From NCBI GenBank assembly GCA_013822735.1, contig PNKZ01000016.1, forward strand, positions 62,001 to 126,000: a DNA stretch of 64,000 nucleotides. The letters run 5' to 3'. This document shows, in pieces, positions 53,015 to 62,375 of the stretch. The translations under genes and the position numbers were made by a program. The notes below the pieces were generated by a model, which saw nothing but the letters and a program-made list of their open reading frames with translations, ran no database searches and was not told the DNA's origin. The stretch is from Pirellula sp. GTDB lineage: Bacteria > Planctomycetota > Planctomycetia > Pirellulales > PNKZ01. Position 1 is the first letter of the stretch. Every line of letters starts with the position of its first letter.

Positions 53015-53089
53015 CGGGGCGTGGCGCAGACTGGCTAGCGCGCTTGCATGGGGTGCAAGAGGTCGCAGGTTCAAATCCTGTCGCCCCGA
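53015..53089 (+). tRNA. trnP: tRNA-Pro (anticodon GGG)
   Basis: Seventy-five bases fold as a cloverleaf: acceptor CGGGGCG with CGCCCCG, D-arm GCGC/GCGC, anticodon stem CTTGC/GCAAG with loop ATGGGGT, and T-arm GCAGG/CCTGT around TTCAAAT. The discriminator is A and no CCA is encoded. The anticodon GGG and G37 fit proline. Its 3' end is copied at 56654-56670, which suggests use as an integration site. Confidence 0.95.
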
Positions 53090-53092
53090 CTT
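53076..53092. repeat. attL-like copy (tRNA-Pro 3' end, 17 bp)
   Basis: TCCTGTCGCCCCGACTT covers the tRNA-Pro 3' end and continues three bases past it. The same 17 bp occur at 56654-56670 in the same orientation, as expected for an element integrated at the tRNA. Confidence 0.65.
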
Positions 53093-53103
53093 GTTCGCAA
53101 CAT

Positions 53104-53147
53104 CAAATCCCGCCAGTGGTTGCATTAGCGACTGTTGGCGGGATTTG
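53104..53147. repeat. 12-bp hairpin downstream of tRNA-Pro
   Basis: CAAATCCCGCCA (53104-53115) and its complement (53136-53147) form a perfect stem around a 20-base loop, followed by a short T-rich stretch. It may terminate the tRNA transcript or be an element-end structure. No gene is recognised in 53090-53472. Confidence 0.7.
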
Positions 53148-53472
53148 AACTTTTCTGCCGTAAATTCTTTTGCAGGCAATCGGCTTCGGTGTGTCGCTCC
53201 GATCCAGGAAAAGTTGCTAACGCCGTGGCCCGAACGACCTCGTACTCGGCCAGGCGGGCGATGCCGTCGTCGCGCAGTACCAACTGATCGCCATGAGGGC
53301 CGATTCACTTCGAGTGCCAACGACAACGTAAGCCGGCAATCCGCCTTCATTTCGCAGCCACGAACTCCGCGCCCATACCAGCCCTCCTATCGAACGGCAT
53401 CGTCTTGGCGGCCAGAGCGAGACGACAATTCACTAAAGAGTGAACCACACTTCCCCGAGCCACGACCCACCG

Positions 53473-53949
53473 ATGACTCATGAGTACCTCCTGTGGCTGG
53501 CGACCGCCGCGTACGCGCTTCATATGCTTGAGGAGTACGAGTACAACTGGCGGGACTGGGCCCGGCGGGTGCTCAAGCTCCCGGTCGAGTGGAACACCTT
53601 CTTCATTGCCAATGCCATCGTGATCGTGCTGGGCGTGTGCTCCGCGGGCGTCGGGTGGCGGGAGCCGTGGTTTTCGCTCGCGTTTCCGGCACTCATGCTC
53701 GTCAACGCCACCTTCTTTCACGTCTTGCCGTTTCTGTGGACGCGAATCAACTCGCCGGGCCTTTTCACGGCTGTTTTGCTCTTCTACCCGATCGCCGGCT
53801 GGGTGTATTACGGAGCGTGGGTGGACGGTGTCCTCAATACCAACGACGCGATCCTTTCGGCCGTGATCGGCACCGCGACCATGGCCTACCCGATCGTGCT
53901 CCTGAGGACAAAGAACCTCCAGTTCTTCCGCCAAGACTCGGCAGAGTAG
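53473..53949 (+). CDS. HXXEE-motif membrane protein
   Basis: The start MTHEYLLWLA at 53473 (GTG at 53440 is an alternative) gives 158 residues with about four or five hydrophobic segments. The early helix carries ALHMLEEY, matching the HXXEE pattern of this poorly known family. Later stretches FIANAIVIVLGVCSAG and GLFTAVLLFYPIAGWVYYGAW fit membrane helices. It is the first gene inside the tRNA-Pro-bounded segment. Confidence 0.75.
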   Translation: MTHEYLLWLATAAYALHMLEEYEYNWRDWARRVLKLPVEWNTFFIANAIVIVLGVCSAGVGWREPWFSLAFPALMLVNATFFHVLPFLWTRINSPGLFTAVLLFYPIAGWVYYGAWVDGVLNTNDAILSAVIGTATMAYPIVLLRTKNLQFFRQDSAE

Positions 53950-53968
53950 CCTTCAACAGCACGGCGGT

Positions 53969-54445
53969 TCATTGATCGTCGGAAAGCTTCAAGGGTGGTC
54001 CGAGGAATTCGACCTTCCAGTGACGACCAAAGTTATTGAGCGCCTGCTGATCTGGAATGCCGTTTTTCATCACACCGGCCAAGTCGGTAAAGAAGCGAGC
54101 GGCATCGAGACCAGGCAGGATCATGACGAGCTGGCGGGCCGGTCGATTCGTAACATTGACAAATCCGTGCTCGGCGCCTCCTGGAACGCTAACAAGATCG
54201 CCAACGTCCGCATGGAAGCGATTGCCATCGACCTCGTAGAGGTAACGGCCTTCAAGGACCCGAAACACCTCCACTTCGTTATGTCGATGACGCGGCGGAC
54301 CGAATCCCGGCGCGTTGATCGTTTCGATTACGGTCATCGTGCCGTCGCTGGATTCCGGCGGCAGGCGCACAAACAGTTCCAGGCCGATCGCAGGGATAGA
54401 AATCGGCGCTTCAGCGCCGCGCGAACACCAGAATGAGAATGCCAT
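53969..54445 (-). CDS. Cupin-domain protein
   Basis: The 158-residue protein has the cupin motif 1-like stretch PRHRHNEVEVFRVLEG and motif 2-like VPGGAEHGFVNV, in a small beta-barrel that often binds a metal. AAGGAG five bases before ATG supports the start. Its role and ligand are unknown. It lies within the putative island next to the decarboxylase-like gene and may be co-transcribed with it. Confidence 0.85.
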   Translation of the reverse strand: MAFSFWCSRGAEAPISIPAIGLELFVRLPPESSDGTMTVIETINAPGFGPPRHRHNEVEVFRVLEGRYLYEVDGNRFHADVGDLVSVPGGAEHGFVNVTNRPARQLVMILPGLDAARFFTDLAGVMKNGIPDQQALNNFGRHWKVEFLGPPLKLSDDQ

Positions 54446-54494
54446 CCTGTCTCCTTTACGGATTGCGCATTAAGGCGGGGCACGTCGGCACGGG

Positions 54495-56102
54495 TCAGGG
54501 CTCACGATCGATGATGAGGAAGCTCGGCCCCCGATGCGCGAGTGCGCGATCGAGGACTTTACCGATCGTCTCAAGGGTTTCGATTTTCTCGGTGCGGGCG
54601 CCAAAGCCCTCCGCGATGGACTGCAAGTTCAGGTTCGGATTGTTGAAATCCATTCCGACGAAGCGCGTGGCTGCCATCGTCGTCCCCATGGCGCCACACC
54701 ACAAGTCTTTCAGCAGTCGATATTCATGGTTCACAAAGCAGACGAAAATCGCGGGGATGGCGTGCTTGGCTGCCGTCCAAATCGCATGAATCGAAAACAA
54801 ACTGCCGCCGTCGCCCACGAAGCAGACGGCGGGGTTTCCGGTCGCCAGCCCGATACCTACGCCCAGCGGCATGGCCCAGCCCAGTCCTCCACCACGCGGC
54901 GAGAAGTGAACGTTGCGAAAACCTAGGCGAACCGCCATGTCCTGTACAATCGCGTCTTCCGAAGATCCCTCGGTAATGACGTGGGTTGCCTGATCGAGAT
55001 GCCGTAACACACCCAGGATCAGAGCGTCGCTCGGATGCCTGCCGGAGGTCGAGTACTTCGCTTCCAGAGCCGACAGATCGGCGGTGCGATCGCCCGAAAG
55101 CGTGGTTGGAGCACCAATCGCAGTTGCCAGCGCCTCCAACGTTGCTTGGATTTCGCCGAGCACGGCGATGTCACAGGGATAATCGAACCCAAGCTGATTA
55201 GCTGCCGGGGCGATTTGAATCACTTGCAGTTCGCTCGGAATCGCGGCGCATCCATCGTAGGTGAAGGTATCGATCCTTTCGCCGATCAACAGCAGCGTGT
55301 GATAGCGGCGCAGCGTTTCATTGATTTTCTTCGTCGTCGGCGGAAGCTGACCACGGAAGTTCGGGTGCAACGGATTGACGGTGCCCTGAACATGGAATGG
55401 TGCCGCGTATATGTCGGCGTCGAGTGCCGTTGCCACGCGGCTTACGGCGTCGACCCCATGCGCAGCGCCAACGGCATAATCGCAAACGATGGCGAGCTTT
55501 CCCGCGGGAACCGCCTTCAGGGCGCGCGACACATCCCCGATTGAGCGAGGCACCGCGTCTTCAATGAGTCGTGTCTTCTTGAATGCCGTGCTTTCGGTTC
55601 GCTCCAGCAGGAAATCCATGGGAATCGACAGGAAGACCGGCCCTGAGGGCTGAAGTCTCGCCTGCAAGTAACAGCGCTGCAGCGCTATGGCGAGATCGTC
55701 CGCACGCGTCACTTCATATGCGTACTTGGTCGCGGTTTCGGCAAGCCGTGTATTTGGTGCTCCGAGGACCGGATTGTGAATGAGAAACCGCGAATCCTGC
55801 TGGCCATTGATGACGAGCAGTGGCACCCCGGACATCAGAGCGTTGCGCATGTTGAACATGCCGTTGGCCAGGCCGGGATAGGTATGCAGGCTGACGATCG
55901 ACGGCTTGCCCGTGATCATCGCATAGCCGGCTGCAATGCCGACGGCGCTGGATTCGTGCAGCGATAGAACGTAGGTCGCTCCGGACTCCGCGACGGCTGC
56001 CAGAAACGTCGTCTCCGTGGTCCCCGGATTTCCGAACACGAAGGGAATTTCGTAGGTCGCGAGGAAATCCTGAATTAGTTCGCCGCCCGTCCGTCCCGCC
56101 AT
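54495..56102 (-). CDS. Thiamine-diphosphate enzyme, benzoylformate-decarboxylase-like
   Basis: The start MAGRTGGELIQD at 56102 has GAGGAG six bases upstream, which favours it over 56138. The 535-residue protein has FGNPGTTETTF, the cofactor-activating Glu in LHESSAVGIAAGYAM, a middle domain from about 190-330 and the cofactor-binding FVGDGGSLFSIHAIW with the second Asn/Asp region. This matches the benzoylformate/acetolactate family. Substrate specificity cannot be read from sequence. It is the main intact enzyme gene of the putative island. Confidence 0.88.
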   Translation of the reverse strand: MAGRTGGELIQDFLATYEIPFVFGNPGTTETTFLAAVAESGATYVLSLHESSAVGIAAGYAMITGKPSIVSLHTYPGLANGMFNMRNALMSGVPLLVINGQQDSRFLIHNPVLGAPNTRLAETATKYAYEVTRADDLAIALQRCYLQARLQPSGPVFLSIPMDFLLERTESTAFKKTRLIEDAVPRSIGDVSRALKAVPAGKLAIVCDYAVGAAHGVDAVSRVATALDADIYAAPFHVQGTVNPLHPNFRGQLPPTTKKINETLRRYHTLLLIGERIDTFTYDGCAAIPSELQVIQIAPAANQLGFDYPCDIAVLGEIQATLEALATAIGAPTTLSGDRTADLSALEAKYSTSGRHPSDALILGVLRHLDQATHVITEGSSEDAIVQDMAVRLGFRNVHFSPRGGGLGWAMPLGVGIGLATGNPAVCFVGDGGSLFSIHAIWTAAKHAIPAIFVCFVNHEYRLLKDLWCGAMGTTMAATRFVGMDFNNPNLNLQSIAEGFGARTEKIETLETIGKVLDRALAHRGPSFLIIDREP

Positions 56103-56165
56103 CGCAGTCTCCTCGCGAACATCGCGACGTGAACCCAAGCAGATTACGCTTCCGATACTCCCGGC

Positions 56166-56560
56166 TTACTCAAACGCAGGGATAAATCGCCGCTGCTGAA
56201 AATCATCCATGAGCCGAACGACCATCGCATTCGTATCCACCACCTCATGAAATCCCAACCGCCCGGCCTTGGTCGTGTCCGACGTCACGTCGTACTTGAT
56301 GTTGAAGATGGCCTCCGCGAATGGCCATGATGCGCCATCTTGGAACGAATATTCCACGAGATTGTACTTCTGGACGATGCTTCGCCAAAGCGGTTCTTTG
56401 TCCGACATGAATAGGGTGAGCGGCATGCGCAGCGGCGGCGCGAAGGGGAGGTGGAAGATTCGGCCGGACGCGGCCAGAGATGTTCCCAGCGGTGGAAATC
56501 GCCGTTGGTGATGTTAAAGGCTTCGCCGTCGCAGTGCCGTTTTCCGCCCAGAGCAAACAA
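56166..56560 (-). pseudogene. Frameshifted remnant of a PRISE-like short-chain dehydrogenase
   Basis: One frame reads DGEAFNITNGDFHRWEHLWPR and then breaks near 56455. Another frame continues with MPLTLFMSDKEPLWRSIVQKYN and VTSDTTKAGRLGFHEVVDT. Together they match the C-terminal third of progesterone-reductase-like (PRISE) short-chain dehydrogenases. The N-terminal two thirds including the nucleotide-binding motif are missing. It lies at the right end of the putative island, next to the second 17-bp copy. Confidence 0.8.
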
Positions 56561-56653
56561 CGGGCGGAGGCGATGTCGACTACAACGCGACGATCCGGTT
56601 ACGAGCCAACCCTTCCCAAGTCGCGAAGCCTGCCAGAAAAAGGTCCAATGGCG

Positions 56654-56670
56654 TCCTGTCGCCCCGACTT
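56654..56670. repeat. attR-like copy of the tRNA-Pro 3' end
   Basis: The same 17 bp as at 53076-53092, in the same orientation, about 3.6 kb downstream and outside any tRNA structure. It bounds the segment carrying the HXXEE, cupin and decarboxylase genes and the pseudogene. Confidence 0.7.
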
Positions 56671-56789
56671 TCTCTAAGTCCTGCCGAATCCGTCCGTTAG
56701 GTTGCCTCTCGATTGTCGAGTGTGCGGCGCCTAATTCGTGAGCTTACCGGGTAGTCGACCCGGTTGGCCTCGAAAGGAGGTTTCGTACC

Positions 56790-56920
56790 ATGGGTTCGGA
56801 CTGCTCGTATCGTCGGCACAAGTCGACCGGACATGCCCGCGTTACGTTTACGACCAAATCATCAAGGCGAAATGCCGAGTGACTGCGGCCCCGGCAAGCT
56901 TGCTGAATGGAAGCCGGCAC
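56790..56920 (+). pseudogene. Possible N-terminal remnant of a tyrosine integrase
   Basis: After AGGAGG the frame from ATG 56790 reads MGSDCSYRRHKSTGHARVTF and stops after 30 codons. A second frame slightly downstream contains GPGKLAEWKPA. These resemble the start of planctomycete integrases (an HKxSGxAxVT-like segment followed by LIAEW). A hairpin (ACCGGGT/ACCCGGT, 56746-56764) lies just before it. The match is by eye and weak. Confidence 0.35.
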
Positions 56921-57131: not shown

Positions 57132-59390
57132 CTACTTGGACTTCGGCGGTAGATTGGAAATCCATCGTCGCAAGATCTCATACGCGTGCGGATCGACATA
57201 GTGCGTTGCTAGCGGCGGCATCTGATAAGGCCCGCGAAGGCCCACACGTGCCAGTAATTCCGAATTCAGCGGATCGCCGGGTGCGACGATTCGCGCGTGA
57301 TCGAGACGTCTTCGTTTTTGGCCGATCGGCTGGTCGATAGCGTTCATTTTTTCCAGGGGCGTCTCGAAACGGAAGTCTCGCTTCATTGGCGCGATTCCAT
57401 CGGGCAAGTGGCACATCGAGCAATTCACGTCGAGCCAAGCGCGGGCCAGCGTCGCCACGTCGCCATGGGGCTCCTTGTTGGGACCGCGTGAAGAATCCTC
57501 ACCGTCCCGATTGAAGTTGCCGTAGCCCCAATCTGGAAAGCGGTCGAGTTCATCCGGCGCCGATCTGATCGGTTTCTTAAAAATGCCGAGGTTGTTGAAA
57601 AGCGTGAGTTGGTTCTCCGACTCTCCGTCATACTTTTCAACACGGTTCAGTTGGGCGGTTTCCAGACCGAGCACAAACCCATGTTGCTTGGTGTGGCACG
57701 TCAAGCAATCGGTTCGGGAAGGAAAGTAATACGTTTGGCTTAACGGTCCGGACAGAGTCTTGATCTCCAGCGACTTGACGACTGAATCGTCGATTAGCCG
57801 GGCTTCCTTTTCATCGTCGTCGTACACATACGTGTAGCCGTTCCAGCCTTCGTTACTCAGCACAAGGAGTCGCGTTTCCAGTCGACGCGCATCTTTCATC
57901 GTGGTGCGATCTTGATGCATCCAAAACGTCTTCACCAGCACGGTGCCGACGGGAAAAGTCCAAGCCTCGTTTTCCTTAAATTCCACCTCGCCTGCTTTGG
58001 GAAGCGCCAAGTAGCGATCTTTCTCGGCATAGTCCGACCAGAACGGAATATTCAGTTCGTACGGAATGAGTCCCGGCGCGGGCTCGTTCTTCTCGACTGA
58101 CGTGAAGAGTCCCGTATCCGTCAACGTCTTCGGAAAGTCACGGCGGATCGCTGTCGCGTCAATCTCGCGCTTTTGGAGTCGGTAGATTCCGCCATCGAAG
58201 GCGCAGAGGTACATCTCGTCGTGTTGATCGCGGCCGAAGGCGGCAATTTGTAGTTCCGTCCGCGCAACTTGTCGTCGTTCTGCTACGCGACGCGAAGCGT
58301 CGAGCTTCAACGTCCATACGTTGCCGCTGAGATAATCTGCACAAAAATAAAGCCCGTCGTAATCCGGAAGCCGCGGGTTTCGGTAAACGAAGCCTCCTGT
58401 AACGGACTGTCCTTCGCCGTGGAAGTATTCCGCGAGCGGATCGATGAGGTGGTTGTCTTTTGCCGGCGAACTCGGCTGAAAATCATGCAACCCCTCCCGT
58501 ATATTCCAACCGTAGTTTCCTCCGCGTTCGATCAGGTTCACTTCTTCAAACCGGTCTTGCCCCACTTCGCCGACCCAAAGATCGCCGGTCTTGCGATCGA
58601 ATCCGAGTCGCCAAATGTTGCGATGTCCGTACGACCAGATCTCGCCGCATACGTCCTTTTGATCGACAAACGGGTTGTCTTTGGGAACGGAATAGGGAAG
58701 TCCGCCGTGCTGATGATCAACGTCGATTCGGAGGATCTTTCCTAGTAGCGAGCCGAGATTTTGCGCATTCTCGTGCGGGTCGTCACGAAGCCCGCCGTCT
58801 CCCATGCCGATATAGAGAAAGCCGTCGGGGCCGAACTGAATACTGCCGCCGTTGTGATTCTCATAAGGCTGTTTGATGACGAGCAGTCGACGCTCCGAAT
58901 TACGATCGGCCTTGTTCGGATCGTTTGATACCTGAAACTCGGCGATGACGGACGATCGCGGCTTCGTCGAATAGTAGACATAGAACTTTCCGTTCGTCTT
59001 GAACTTCGGGTGGAATGCCAACCCCAATAGACCTTCCTCATTTCCTTCACGCAGCGTCACGTCGCGAAGATCAAGAAATATCTCTGCTTGCTGCGCCGCG
59101 GGGTCGTTCTTAAAAACACGAATCGTACCCTGTTGTTCGACGACGAAGATCCGGTCGGATCCGTCGGGGGCGAAAGTGAGTTCGACGGGACGCTTGAATT
59201 CCAACTTTTCGAAAACGCGCTGCGCCTTCAGCGGCAGCGGATTGGGTGAGCCTTGCAACCGCGCGGTATCAACCGGCACAAAAGTCTTCGGCAGACCGCG
59301 CGAACCCGGTTCAAGGGCGGCCAACTCGCTCGTTAAGAGGCCAACCGTCAGAAACAACGCCGCCCGCGGAATGTTTGCGTAGTACAGCAT
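57132..59390 (-). CDS. Exported PQQ-type sugar dehydrogenase fused to a cytochrome-c-like region
   Basis: Start MLYYANIPRAAL at 59390 gives 752 residues with a signal peptide (ALFLTVGLLTSELAA). The N-terminal half is a glucose/sorbosone dehydrogenase-like propeller (VELTFAPDGSDRIFVVEQQG, LLGLAFHPKFKTNGKFYVYY, WSYGHRNIWRLGFD). The C-terminal half contains two haem-attachment motifs, CLTCH at about 560 and CSMCH at about 655. The fusion would pass electrons from sugar oxidation to a haem chain in the periplasm. The longer frame to 59546 lacks a signal peptide at its start. Confidence 0.85.
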   Translation of the reverse strand: MLYYANIPRAALFLTVGLLTSELAALEPGSRGLPKTFVPVDTARLQGSPNPLPLKAQRVFEKLEFKRPVELTFAPDGSDRIFVVEQQGTIRVFKNDPAAQQAEIFLDLRDVTLREGNEEGLLGLAFHPKFKTNGKFYVYYSTKPRSSVIAEFQVSNDPNKADRNSERRLLVIKQPYENHNGGSIQFGPDGFLYIGMGDGGLRDDPHENAQNLGSLLGKILRIDVDHQHGGLPYSVPKDNPFVDQKDVCGEIWSYGHRNIWRLGFDRKTGDLWVGEVGQDRFEEVNLIERGGNYGWNIREGLHDFQPSSPAKDNHLIDPLAEYFHGEGQSVTGGFVYRNPRLPDYDGLYFCADYLSGNVWTLKLDASRRVAERRQVARTELQIAAFGRDQHDEMYLCAFDGGIYRLQKREIDATAIRRDFPKTLTDTGLFTSVEKNEPAPGLIPYELNIPFWSDYAEKDRYLALPKAGEVEFKENEAWTFPVGTVLVKTFWMHQDRTTMKDARRLETRLLVLSNEGWNGYTYVYDDDEKEARLIDDSVVKSLEIKTLSGPLSQTYYFPSRTDCLTCHTKQHGFVLGLETAQLNRVEKYDGESENQLTLFNNLGIFKKPIRSAPDELDRFPDWGYGNFNRDGEDSSRGPNKEPHGDVATLARAWLDVNCSMCHLPDGIAPMKRDFRFETPLEKMNAIDQPIGQKRRRLDHARIVAPGDPLNSELLARVGLRGPYQMPPLATHYVDPHAYEILRRWISNLPPKSK

Positions 59391-59460
59391 GGATGGCTTT
59401 GAACGCTCTCGAGGAATGTCGGAATCACAAATGAAACGGTCGGAGCAATGAGCAAACCAC

Positions 59461-59817
59461 ATGCCTGGACGTCTGGACCTGCGCGGGACCGGGCGCGTCA
59501 TTTGCGTGCGTTTCCTTCTTTTCGACGCTTTACCGCGAGCCCTCAAGACCGCAAGCTTTTACGATGGTTTATCGTTTTGGATCACCAAGCTCGGCGCCTG
59601 TTGGCTCGTTTGCTTCCTCTGGATGTACCGGCTCGGCAAAACGCAGAACAGCCTGTTAGACGCATTACAACAACAGGGCCGGCGGATCGAGGCATTGTCC
59701 CGAGAGGAACATCAACTCATTCAAGAAGTGCATCCGCAGGTCGCGGAGATCAAACAGGAAGTGACCCAGATGGCGCACCCCGATGAGCGACCGCACGTCG
59801 ATCGTGCCGGCGGCTAG
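59461..59817 (+). CDS. Small protein with one membrane helix and a coiled coil
   Basis: The 118-residue frame has a hydrophobic segment ([23 protein letters not shown]) followed by a Glu/Gln/Arg-rich stretch likely to be coiled coil ([26 protein letters not shown]). The start is uncertain. It precedes the UvrA paralogue on the same strand by 23 bp and may be co-transcribed. I do not recognise a family. Confidence 0.5.
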
Positions 59818-59840: not shown

Positions 59841-62375
59841 ATGAGCAACTCCAACGACGACAATTCCATGCCGCATGACGAAGGTTTCATTACGGTTCGA
59901 GGCGCTCGAGAGCACAATCTCAAGAACATCGACGTCCGAATTCCGCGCAACGCACTGGTCGTCTTCACGGGCATATCGGGTTCGGGGAAATCATCGCTGG
60001 CATTTAGCACGCTGTACGCGGAGGCTCAACGGCGATACCTGGAGTCGGTCGCTCCCTACGCACGACGGCTGTTTCACCAGTTGGGAGTGCCTCAAGTCGA
60101 CGACATTGAAGGACTGCCTCCCGCCGTGGCGCTGCAGCAGCAGCGCGGCTCACCGACGACACGCTCGAGCGTCGGCAGCGTGACGACGCTTTCTAATCTA
60201 CTGCGGATGCTTTACTCGCGCGCAGGGACATATCCCGCAAAGCAACCGCATCTCGATGCGGAGGCGTTCTCCCCCAACACGCCGGCCGGAGCGTGCCCGC
60301 AATGCCAAGGCCTGGGGCAGATGTACGATGTCACCGAGCGCTCGATGGTGCCGGATGACACGAAGAGTATTCGAGAACGGGCCATCGCGGCTTGGCCTCC
60401 GGCCTGGCACGGTCAGAATTTGCGCGACATCGTCACGACGCTCGGGCACGACATCGACCGGCCGTGGCGCGAGCTTCCGAAGAAAACACGCGACTGGCTT
60501 CTATTTACCGACGAACAACCGGTCGTCCCGGTTTATGCGGGATGGGACCTCGCGGAAGTGCGCGCGGCGCTGAAGCGGAAAGAATCGCCCAGCTATATGG
60601 GCACCTTTACCGGTGCTCGAAAGTATGTACTAGAGACGTTTGCGAAGACGGAAAGCGCCTCGATGAAGAAGCGGGTAGCCCAATTCATGGTGGGCGCCGA
60701 TTGCACGCTTTGCGGCGGAAAGAGGTTGCGGCGCGAGTCGCTTTCGGTCACGTTCGCAGGGCTCGATATCACCGAGACGTCGCGACTTTCGCTGCGTCGC
60801 CTTGCCGAGAACTTGAGGCCGTATGCAAATGGTTCCGCCGGGGGCTGGAAACAGCTTTCTCGTGAACATCCTGAAACGGCGATCGTCACGCAGCGGATCG
60901 CCGCCGACTTAGTCGGCCGGCTGGAAGTGCTGCTTGATCTCGGACTGGGATACTTGGCGCTAGAACGGAGTACGCCGACTCTTTCGCCGGGCGAGCTCCA
61001 GCGGTTGCGCCTAGCTACGCAAGTTCGGTCGAATCTATTCGGCGTGGTCTACGTGCTTGACGAGCCGTCGGCAGGCCTGCACCCGGCTGACACCGAAGCG
61101 CTGCTCGTGGCACTCGAGCGACTCAAGAACGCAGGCAACTCCATCTTTGTGGTCGAGCATGAAATCGACGTCATTCGTCGCGCGGACTGGATTGTCGACG
61201 TCGGGCCCGGCGCCGGAGAACATGGCGGTCGGATTCTTTACAGCGGTCCGCCCGCAGGCTTGGCTAAGGTTCAGGATTCTCAAACGCGCCGTTATCTTTT
61301 TGAGCAACTATCCGCAAGGCAACGGCCGGCGAGAACGCCGCGCGGATGGCTGCACCTGAACGGAATTAGAAGAAACAATCTCCAGTGTCTCGACGTAGCA
61401 TTTCCGTTGGGCGTCATGACGACGGTTACCGGAATTTCGGGATCCGGCAAATCAAGCCTCGTCAGCCAAGTGCTCGTCGATTTGGTCGCCTTGGAATTGG
61501 GCCATGAGCTTCCTGCCGACGACGATGACGCGGGCGAGGTCGAACAGAGCGAGTCCGCAGCTTCAAGTGGACGAATTACCGCGGGTATGGAGTCGATCAA
61601 GCGGCTCGTGCGAGTCGATCAAAGACCAATTGGTCGCACGCCGCGTTCAAACCTCGCGACCTACACGGGACTGTTCGATCACGTGCGGCGCCTCTTCGCG
61701 GCTACGAAAACCGCGCGGTCACGGAAGTATGACGCCGGGCGATTCTCTTTCAACGTCGCCGCCGGTCGATGCGAGACCTGTTCCGGCGAAGGATTCGTCT
61801 TCGTTGAATTGTTGTTCTTACCGAGCGTGTACGCGCCATGTCCGACCTGCCATGGTGCGCGCTACAACGCCAAGACTCTGGAGGTGAGGTATCGCGACCG
61901 GAATATTGCCGAAGTGTTGAGCATGACGGTCGACCATGCCTGGGAGTTCTTCGCGGAAGAACCGCCGTTGCGTCATGCATTGACGGTGCTGCGCGACGTG
62001 GGCCTCGGGTATTTGCGCCTCGGTCAGCCGGCTACGGAACTCTCCGGTGGAGAGGCGCAGAGAATTAAGCTTGCCACGGAACTACAGCGACAGCAGCGAG
62101 GCCACAACCTTTACGTGCTCGACGAACCGACGACCGGCTTGCATCCTTCCGACGTCGAACGGTTGTTCGCACAGCTCGACGCCTTGGTCGATGCGGGCAA
62201 TACGGTGATCGTCGTCGAACACGATTTGCACGTTGTCGCCGGCAGCGATTGGGTGATCGATCTGGGGCCCGGTGCCGGGGAAGAAGGAGGACGCATCATT
62301 TTTGCGGGCCCGCCCATCAAACTATCAAAAGTAAAAGAAAGCCAAACGGGCAAGTACTTGAAGCGTTCTATGTAA
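59841..62375 (+). CDS. UvrA-like ABC excinuclease paralogue (UvrA2 type)
   Basis: The 844-residue protein has two ABC modules: Walker [21 protein letters not shown] near 43 and [16 protein letters not shown] near 531, with Walker [12 protein letters not shown] and [11 protein letters not shown]. The first signature reads LSPGELQR instead of LSGGE. Zinc fingers are visible as CPQC ... CTLC and CETC ... CPTC. The length, below the ~940 of UvrA1, fits the UvrA2 class, which lacks the UvrB-binding domain and is linked to drug or damage tolerance rather than core repair. It overlaps the DUF72 gene stop by eight bases. Confidence 0.9.

Follow-up and report, generated by a model that had tools for sequence, protein, structure and literature searches.

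Evidence for a small recombinase-less island at the 3' end of a tRNA-Pro(GGG) gene of Pirellula sp. and for related islands across the order

The 3.6-kb interval that follows the tRNA-Pro(GGG) gene in the window, the stretch of 64,000 nucleotides from Pirellula sp. analysed here, is very probably a small island that lacks a recombinase and was integrated site-specifically at the 3' end of that gene. Judged by sequence, both its ends correspond to conserved island ends, and it appears to belong to a group of small islands spread across the order that reuse the tRNA-Pro site without a recombinase of their own. Its right border is marked by the displaced 3' end of the tRNA; immediately beyond lies a second island, whose integrase is decayed. 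There is good support for insertion by site-specific recombination. The initial annotation had already read the interval as an island integrated in a tRNA gene, a reading that is strengthened by the exact border repeat, the conserved island ends and the presence of an alternative occupant at the same site in a genome of the same genus (G001).

The tRNA-Pro(GGG) gene (53015-53090, plus strand; ARAGORN, Rfam) is the target site (attB/attL) and is intact. The 85 bp that include the gene and 9 bp upstream of it are 100% identical in G001. Its last 15 bases plus TT form the core TCCTGTCGCCCCGACTT (copy 1, 53076-53092, plus strand), which pattern search identifies as an exact repeat. The second exact copy (56654-56670, plus strand) lies 3578 bp further on in the same orientation, as first annotated, and is at once attR of the interval island and attL of the next one. 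The interval is in this way bounded, as expected of tRNA islands, by an intact tRNA and a copy of its 3' end in the same orientation. Searches of the Pirellula genome (6.88 Mb) by pattern, family and DNA found only two exact copies of the 17-mer, the two borders, and three matches with one mismatch, so that the repeat is not a common sequence of this genome. Within the window, the two border copies are the only matches when up to 3 mismatches are allowed. One of the one-mismatch matches (C2:751761) is the 3' end of tRNA-Pro(TGG), and the other two (C1:34919, C2:221250) each come after sequence that resembles the right end of the island. An exact 17-mer is expected by arithmetic to occur by chance within 3.6 kb with a probability of ~4e-7. 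Rfam detected in the window the tRNA and a chance-level DUF3577 match and no other family. A chance repeat, or an ordinary local duplication of the tRNA end around native genes, would agree with the similar composition of interval and flanks; it is extremely improbable, however, given that the copy lies within an island end that is conserved, that both arms recur beside cores in other genomes and that the cargo has no orthologue in the genus. The conservation of the ends already refutes it.

Different occupants follow this tRNA in relatives, and tRNA-Pro(GGG) is therefore an integration site in the group. In G001 the same left neighbour (86% amino acid identity) and the same tRNA (100%) are directly followed by a tyrosine recombinase gene (type A; PF00589), which runs into the tRNA, and by other, unrelated genes. 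Type-B arms with a serine recombinase (PF00239, PF07508) come after two tRNA-Pro(GGG) genes of G003 and one of G005, and a type-C arm with another serine-recombinase type (PF07508 below cut-off) follows that of G002. None of the interval genes is present at the tRNA-Pro(GGG) sites of these four genomes; a gene order that keeps the interval in all relatives, which would speak against an island, is absent. The empty site predicted for close relatives was not encountered among those examined: G001, with its shared left flank and tRNA, holds another island with an integrase, and G002:C6 was rejected as an empty site because a serine recombinase follows the tRNA.

The left arm of the island (type D, 53093-53165, plus strand) carries a conserved 21-bp hairpin (53103-53148), defined by homologous arms and a covariance model. 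The first alignment contains type-D arms from 8 other loci, almost always situated immediately 3' of a core, and positions 53088-53155 of the window match G003:C295:103743-103810. In the hairpin-arm alignment (n=9 arms) 92% of the cells are paired, versus 88.7% when shuffled and 28-49% when slid, and five pairs show compensatory changes on both sides. The covariance model R1, which describes the hairpin alone and leaves the core out, has matches in 22 of the 397 genomes of the order searched. A core of tRNA-Pro type, exact to degenerate, precedes the hairpin at the same spacing in ~10 of the 15 loci inspected outside the first alignment, in two cases as part of a complete tRNA-Pro(TGG) gene; cores with up to 3 mismatches are found in 1.7% of random 110-bp stretches. 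The hairpin loci of G101, G049, G255, G026 and G048:C251 have no core before the hairpin. The hairpin arm stands directly after a tRNA-Pro 3'-end core in ~20 genomes of the order. The conserved G-U pairs on the tRNA strand lead to its assignment as an RNA hairpin, which probably ends the tRNA transcript as a terminator. A native terminator of tRNA-Pro, lying outside the island, would explain both the need for these G-U pairs and the presence of the hairpin after complete tRNA genes in G000, G124, G220 and G192. This is improbable, since the hairpin is also found after non-tRNA cores in tandem junctions (G002:C80, G034, G018, G140, G264) and since in G001, G002 and G003 tRNA-Pro genes that are orthologous or identical are followed by other arms. 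Translation of the left arm gives KSSNPANSR*CNHWRDLMLRTSRGDRI, which matches L135 and L128, but this coding interpretation was not adopted: a long conserved frame is lacking, and the conservation is accounted for by the RNA hairpin.

The right end of the island (56580-56669, minus strand) contains the frame SRGDRTPLDLFLAGFATWEGLARNRIVAL*, a diverged copy of a conserved recombinase carboxyl-terminal tail. When the junction of G002:C80 was searched over the 397 genomes, right-end matches were obtained in 46 of them. The order-wide right end is RAAAAAGTTCAATAGCCGT, positioned immediately ahead of the core, and the DNA of the window departs from this consensus by 5 mismatches in 34. Read on the opposite strand, the right end codes for SRGD[RK]T[AP]IELF..G...W with its commonest stop at codon 34 (12 of 33 tails); that of the window encodes, in antisense, the 34-codon tail type (SRGDRTAIELF...) that other islands join to a recombinase. 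Per-site pairwise differences of 0.13/0.03/0.27 at codon positions 1/2/3 of the TAIELF tail indicate that it is selected as protein. The tail continues the type-B recombinase in frame at the tandem junction L134 (..RKPFDVLAEGLSVPS-SRGDKTAIELFIAGVGGW..) and the type-C recombinase in G001:C389, where the frame has 719 codons; type C is not uniform, the gene of G002:C6 stopping before the core. Where the type-B gene lies next to a tRNA gene or a tRNA-like core, it ends in SRGD[RK]I* (L015, L172, L189, L195). Its short form at the tRNA and its full tail in junctions imply that attP lies within the 3' end of the gene and that integration removes the tail.

Beyond the right core lies a second island (type E), whose left arm (56671-56861, plus strand; 88% to G003:C295:106150-106325) includes the amino-terminal remnant of a tyrosine recombinase. 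When the comparison includes the core, at which the similarity starts, positions 56655-56845 are 88% identical to G003:C295:106134-106325. The remnant MGSDCSYRRHKSTGHARVTFTTKS spans 19-24 codons (56790-56861), after which the frame is lost. The type-E arm is homologous to L143 (G027:C7:146069), in which an intact Phage_integrase tyrosine recombinase of 425 residues begins ~150 bp after the core; the copy of G003 is likewise broken. The presence of this arm and of the integrase remnant makes the right core a tandem junction whose right side is not simply native chromosome. The right copy cannot be taken as the end of foreign DNA. A larger transfer unit is conceivable, though rather unlikely, in which DNA from the tRNA to an unseen right end of the second island moved together, the interval being part of a composite and its integrase the remnant at 56790. 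Tandem islands are indeed common at these sites (G018:C4, G005:C4, G140:C1), and the right flank, with its GSDH (GC3 0.40) and UvrA-like genes, has a lower GC content and no syntenic partner nearby. Against such a unit, no further right end was found downstream up to the contig end 22.4 kb on, conserved synteny with G003 resumes near C16:129150, and the second arm also occurs in G003, there behind another hairpin-arm island.

Islands in tRNA genes usually, but not obligatorily, have an integrase of their own, and islands without a recombinase are usually dismissed as relics. Searches of the interval for ORFs and Pfam domains revealed no integrase, and tblastn with the tyrosine recombinase of G001 and the serine recombinase of G003 gave only antisense tRNA and chance matches in the interval, which were rejected as recombinase remnants. 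The absence of a complete integrase inside, stated in the initial annotation, is confirmed, the short type-E remnant lying just outside. In the class to which the interval is assigned, ORFs were listed in ~1.5 kb (about 1.2-1.6 kb) after 18 hairpin arms and the main ORFs of 14 of them were scanned with Pfam. No recombinase was found near any of the 18 arms in these stretches, which do not reach the end of every island. The cargo that follows the arms includes a sigma factor, a sulfatase, an MmeI target-recognition domain, AHSA1, LamG, TetR, DUF2314, a glycosyltransferase and PEP-CTERM, or has no domain. With 0 of 18 arms having a recombinase within ~1.5 kb, it seems that lack of an integrase characterises the class and is not only a result of decay. 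The best evidence that recombinase-less units move is provided, at the sequence level, by a unit of 2.1-2.2 kb common to G003 (f1), G035 (f14) and G140 (f15), which belong to three families. Its copies have 81-86% DNA identity and code for an ECF sigma factor and an SDR in all three genomes and for DUF1330 in G003 and G140. The shared sequence begins at the boundary of the core and, in copies that have a right core, ends ahead of it. The sigma factor of this unit is also found after the hairpin arm of G261. G003 features, in addition, a 2.4-kb unit that shares with the window the left arm and the sequence past the right core; the right end of this unit has diverged and its left core is degenerate.

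The interval is of a known kind, that of CIME-like tandem islands. CIMEs are cis-mobilizable elements defined as decay products of ICEs or IMEs, and they share with it the lack of integrase and transfer genes, att sites at a tRNA 3' end and a decayed tandem neighbour (PMC5704250). The interval has kept attL and attR, has no integration or transfer genes and is adjoined by the decayed type-E integrase at 56790. It differs from CIMEs in two respects: many genomes share the recombinase-less left arm in conserved form, and one unit of this sort is found in more than one family. Such intervals are usually explained as CIMEs by decay (PMC5704250), which would make the present one the rest of an autonomous island that lost its own integrase by deletion. 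The truncated reductase (see below) and the diverged recombinase tail at the right end agree with this origin, yet the recombinase-less left arm defines a conserved class: none of the 18 hairpin arms inspected has a recombinase within ~1.5 kb, and one unit without a recombinase has spread among families together with its ends. An origin by decay is somewhat unlikely.

The island could have been excised, carried and inserted by the recombinase of another island that uses the same core; recombinases at neighbouring cores are of tyrosine and serine types. Such movement by a helper in trans is, on balance, somewhat favoured. The alternative is that the island was carried along with its neighbour by accretion and cis-mobilization. 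Most likely, a recombinase-less circle would have inserted at the tRNA core when this already held the type-E island, the incoming 3' end restoring the tRNA and the incoming hairpin restoring the transcription terminator. The tRNA stays whole because the island supplies its own copy of the 3' end. What we infer here is which helper acted, in what order the steps occurred and how mobile the island still is. The island is probably stationary now, its right end having diverged and its reductase being broken.

The islands also resemble those described at ssrA of Dehalococcoides, which are arranged in tandem and bounded by a 20-bp copy of the RNA-gene 3' end, show a conserved motif just before each repeat and carry a left-edge recombinase in some cases, 15 of them being devoid of an integration module (PMC3146451). 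The tandem layout, 3'-end repeats, pre-repeat motif and module-less members are common to both, whereas the Dehalococcoides target is tmRNA and here several unrelated recombinase types use one tRNA-Pro core; the parts of that paper considered here describe neither a hairpin arm nor a recombinase-tail right end. In phage Mx8 of Myxococcus attP lies inside int and integration changes the carboxyl terminus (PMC6070905, PMC4383910). The location of attP in the 3' part of the recombinase gene is shared by relatives of the present island (type B, partly type C), but Mx8 codes for a tyrosine integrase, these relatives for serine recombinases, and the island of the window has only a separated tail. 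Tycheposons, as outlined in PMC10872708, are likewise cargo islands bounded by tRNA; they have a tyrosine recombinase and measure 4-200 kb, unlike the present 3.6-kb unit without such an enzyme. Integron cassettes are similar in arrangement only, as small tandem cargo units each with a hairpin-forming site and a recombinase elsewhere, while the core is here a tRNA 3' end. According to Islander (2014), tyrosine integrases were the only ones known to use tRNA genes (PMC4383910); serine recombinases appear to do so here. A limited search of the open-access literature retrieved no description of islands that lack a recombinase, combine a conserved hairpin arm with a detached recombinase tail and form a class spread across an order.

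It is tentatively proposed that tRNA-Pro 3' ends of this order act as an open docking site, at which recombinase-less units with a hairpin arm and a detached tail would be stacked in tandem and mobilised in trans by several unrelated tyrosine and serine recombinases that share the core. If so, a tRNA gene would here serve as a site of gene capture comparable to an integron. In serine-recombinase islands integration itself would, in addition, trim the tail, and this trimming may set the direction of the recombinase. The island ends are conserved enough to be searched for, a recombinase-less unit is present in three families and candidate helpers are found at the same core, so that the movement of integrase-less islands becomes open to direct testing.

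The cargo of the interval comprises an HXXEE-motif protein (53473-53949, plus strand; PF13787, E 1.7e-12), a cupin (53969-54445, minus strand; PF07883, E 1.1e-15), a TPP-dependent, benzoylformate-decarboxylase-like enzyme (54495-56102, minus strand; PF02776/PF00205/PF02775) and the remnant of a PRISE-type reductase (56166-56556, minus strand; phmmer to iridoid synthase 3.8e-5). Pfam matches, together with benzoylformate decarboxylase as the nearest solved relative of the TPP enzyme, uphold the first three assignments made initially. The fourth gene, then called a broken dehydrogenase, is indeed broken, with about the last third left and ORFs in two frames, and is a reductase of the PRISE type (iridoid synthase/progesterone 5-beta-reductase). 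The description of the island as decayed applies to this reductase and to the recombinase tail, which are remnants, and not to the HXXEE, cupin and TPP genes, whose reading frames are intact. The TPP enzyme has 85% amino acid and 81% DNA identity to that of Methylocella silvestris and mostly 74-84% identity to other, chiefly alphaproteobacterial, records. In 39 genomes drawn from the genus, family and order of the host, the best matches over the full length have ~30-33% amino acid identity. The TPP gene is on these grounds foreign, and the cargo as a whole (TPP decarboxylase, cupin, HXXEE, reductase) would derive from proteobacteria-like donors. The comparison of codon use with the neighbours does not single the interval out: its GC3 is 0.62-0.85, versus 0.70-0.84 in the left flank and values down to 0.40 in the right flank. 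GC and GC3 do not differ clearly from the flanks, and their overlap led composition to be dropped as a sign of foreignness. An HXXEE homologue is found beside a TPP enzyme of the same family in L078, and a cupin homologue, 68% identical, is located near a TPP gene in L070. Note that genes for NHLP-type RiPP precursors (TIGR03793, below cut-off) are present near the TPP enzyme in both L070 and L078.

The tRNA-Pro 3' ends, or tRNA-like cores, of several genomes of the order are adjoined by serine recombinases (L042 on G003:C69, L172 on G001:C546, L195 on G002:C27, L189 on G005:C4 and L045 on G002:C6). Tyrosine integrases were the sole integrase type known at tRNA genes in a 2014 survey (PMC4383910). 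At tandem junctions (L134, G005:C4:179735; L118, G001:C389; L160; L136) the recombinase frame reads through the att core into the conserved tail SRGDRTAIELF, whereas beside the tRNA the recombinase carboxyl terminus is SRGDRI*. It is possible that integration itself sets the direction of recombination through this change of tail. More right-end-like remnants of the island family are found in the window's own genome, at G000:C26:28959, C1:34919 and C2:221250 (loci L203, L206 and L207).

The genes to the right of the window island code for a glucose/sorbosone dehydrogenase-like protein (57132-59546), with a GC3 of 0.40 versus ~0.75 in the left-hand genes, and for a UvrA-like ABC protein (59841-62375). 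The former has a ~60% orthologue in G003, in a different context. The UvrA-like protein has no close orthologue among six relatives (best identity 40-51%); its gene is likely accessory.

Members of the TPP-enzyme family, represented in the island cargo, have NHLP-type RiPP precursor genes nearby at L070 and L078, and also at L067, L069 and L076. HXXEE or cupin genes sometimes accompany such neighbourhoods, and at L075 and L078 a tRNA gene lies 0.1-0.3 kb from the TPP-enzyme cluster.

A ~2.1-kb mobile unit carrying an ECF sigma factor and an SDR is common to three families of the order (L116, G003:C295; L179, G035:C467; L176, G140:C1). Two of its copies feature DUF1330, and its sigma factor is also found in G261 (L219, G261:C1).
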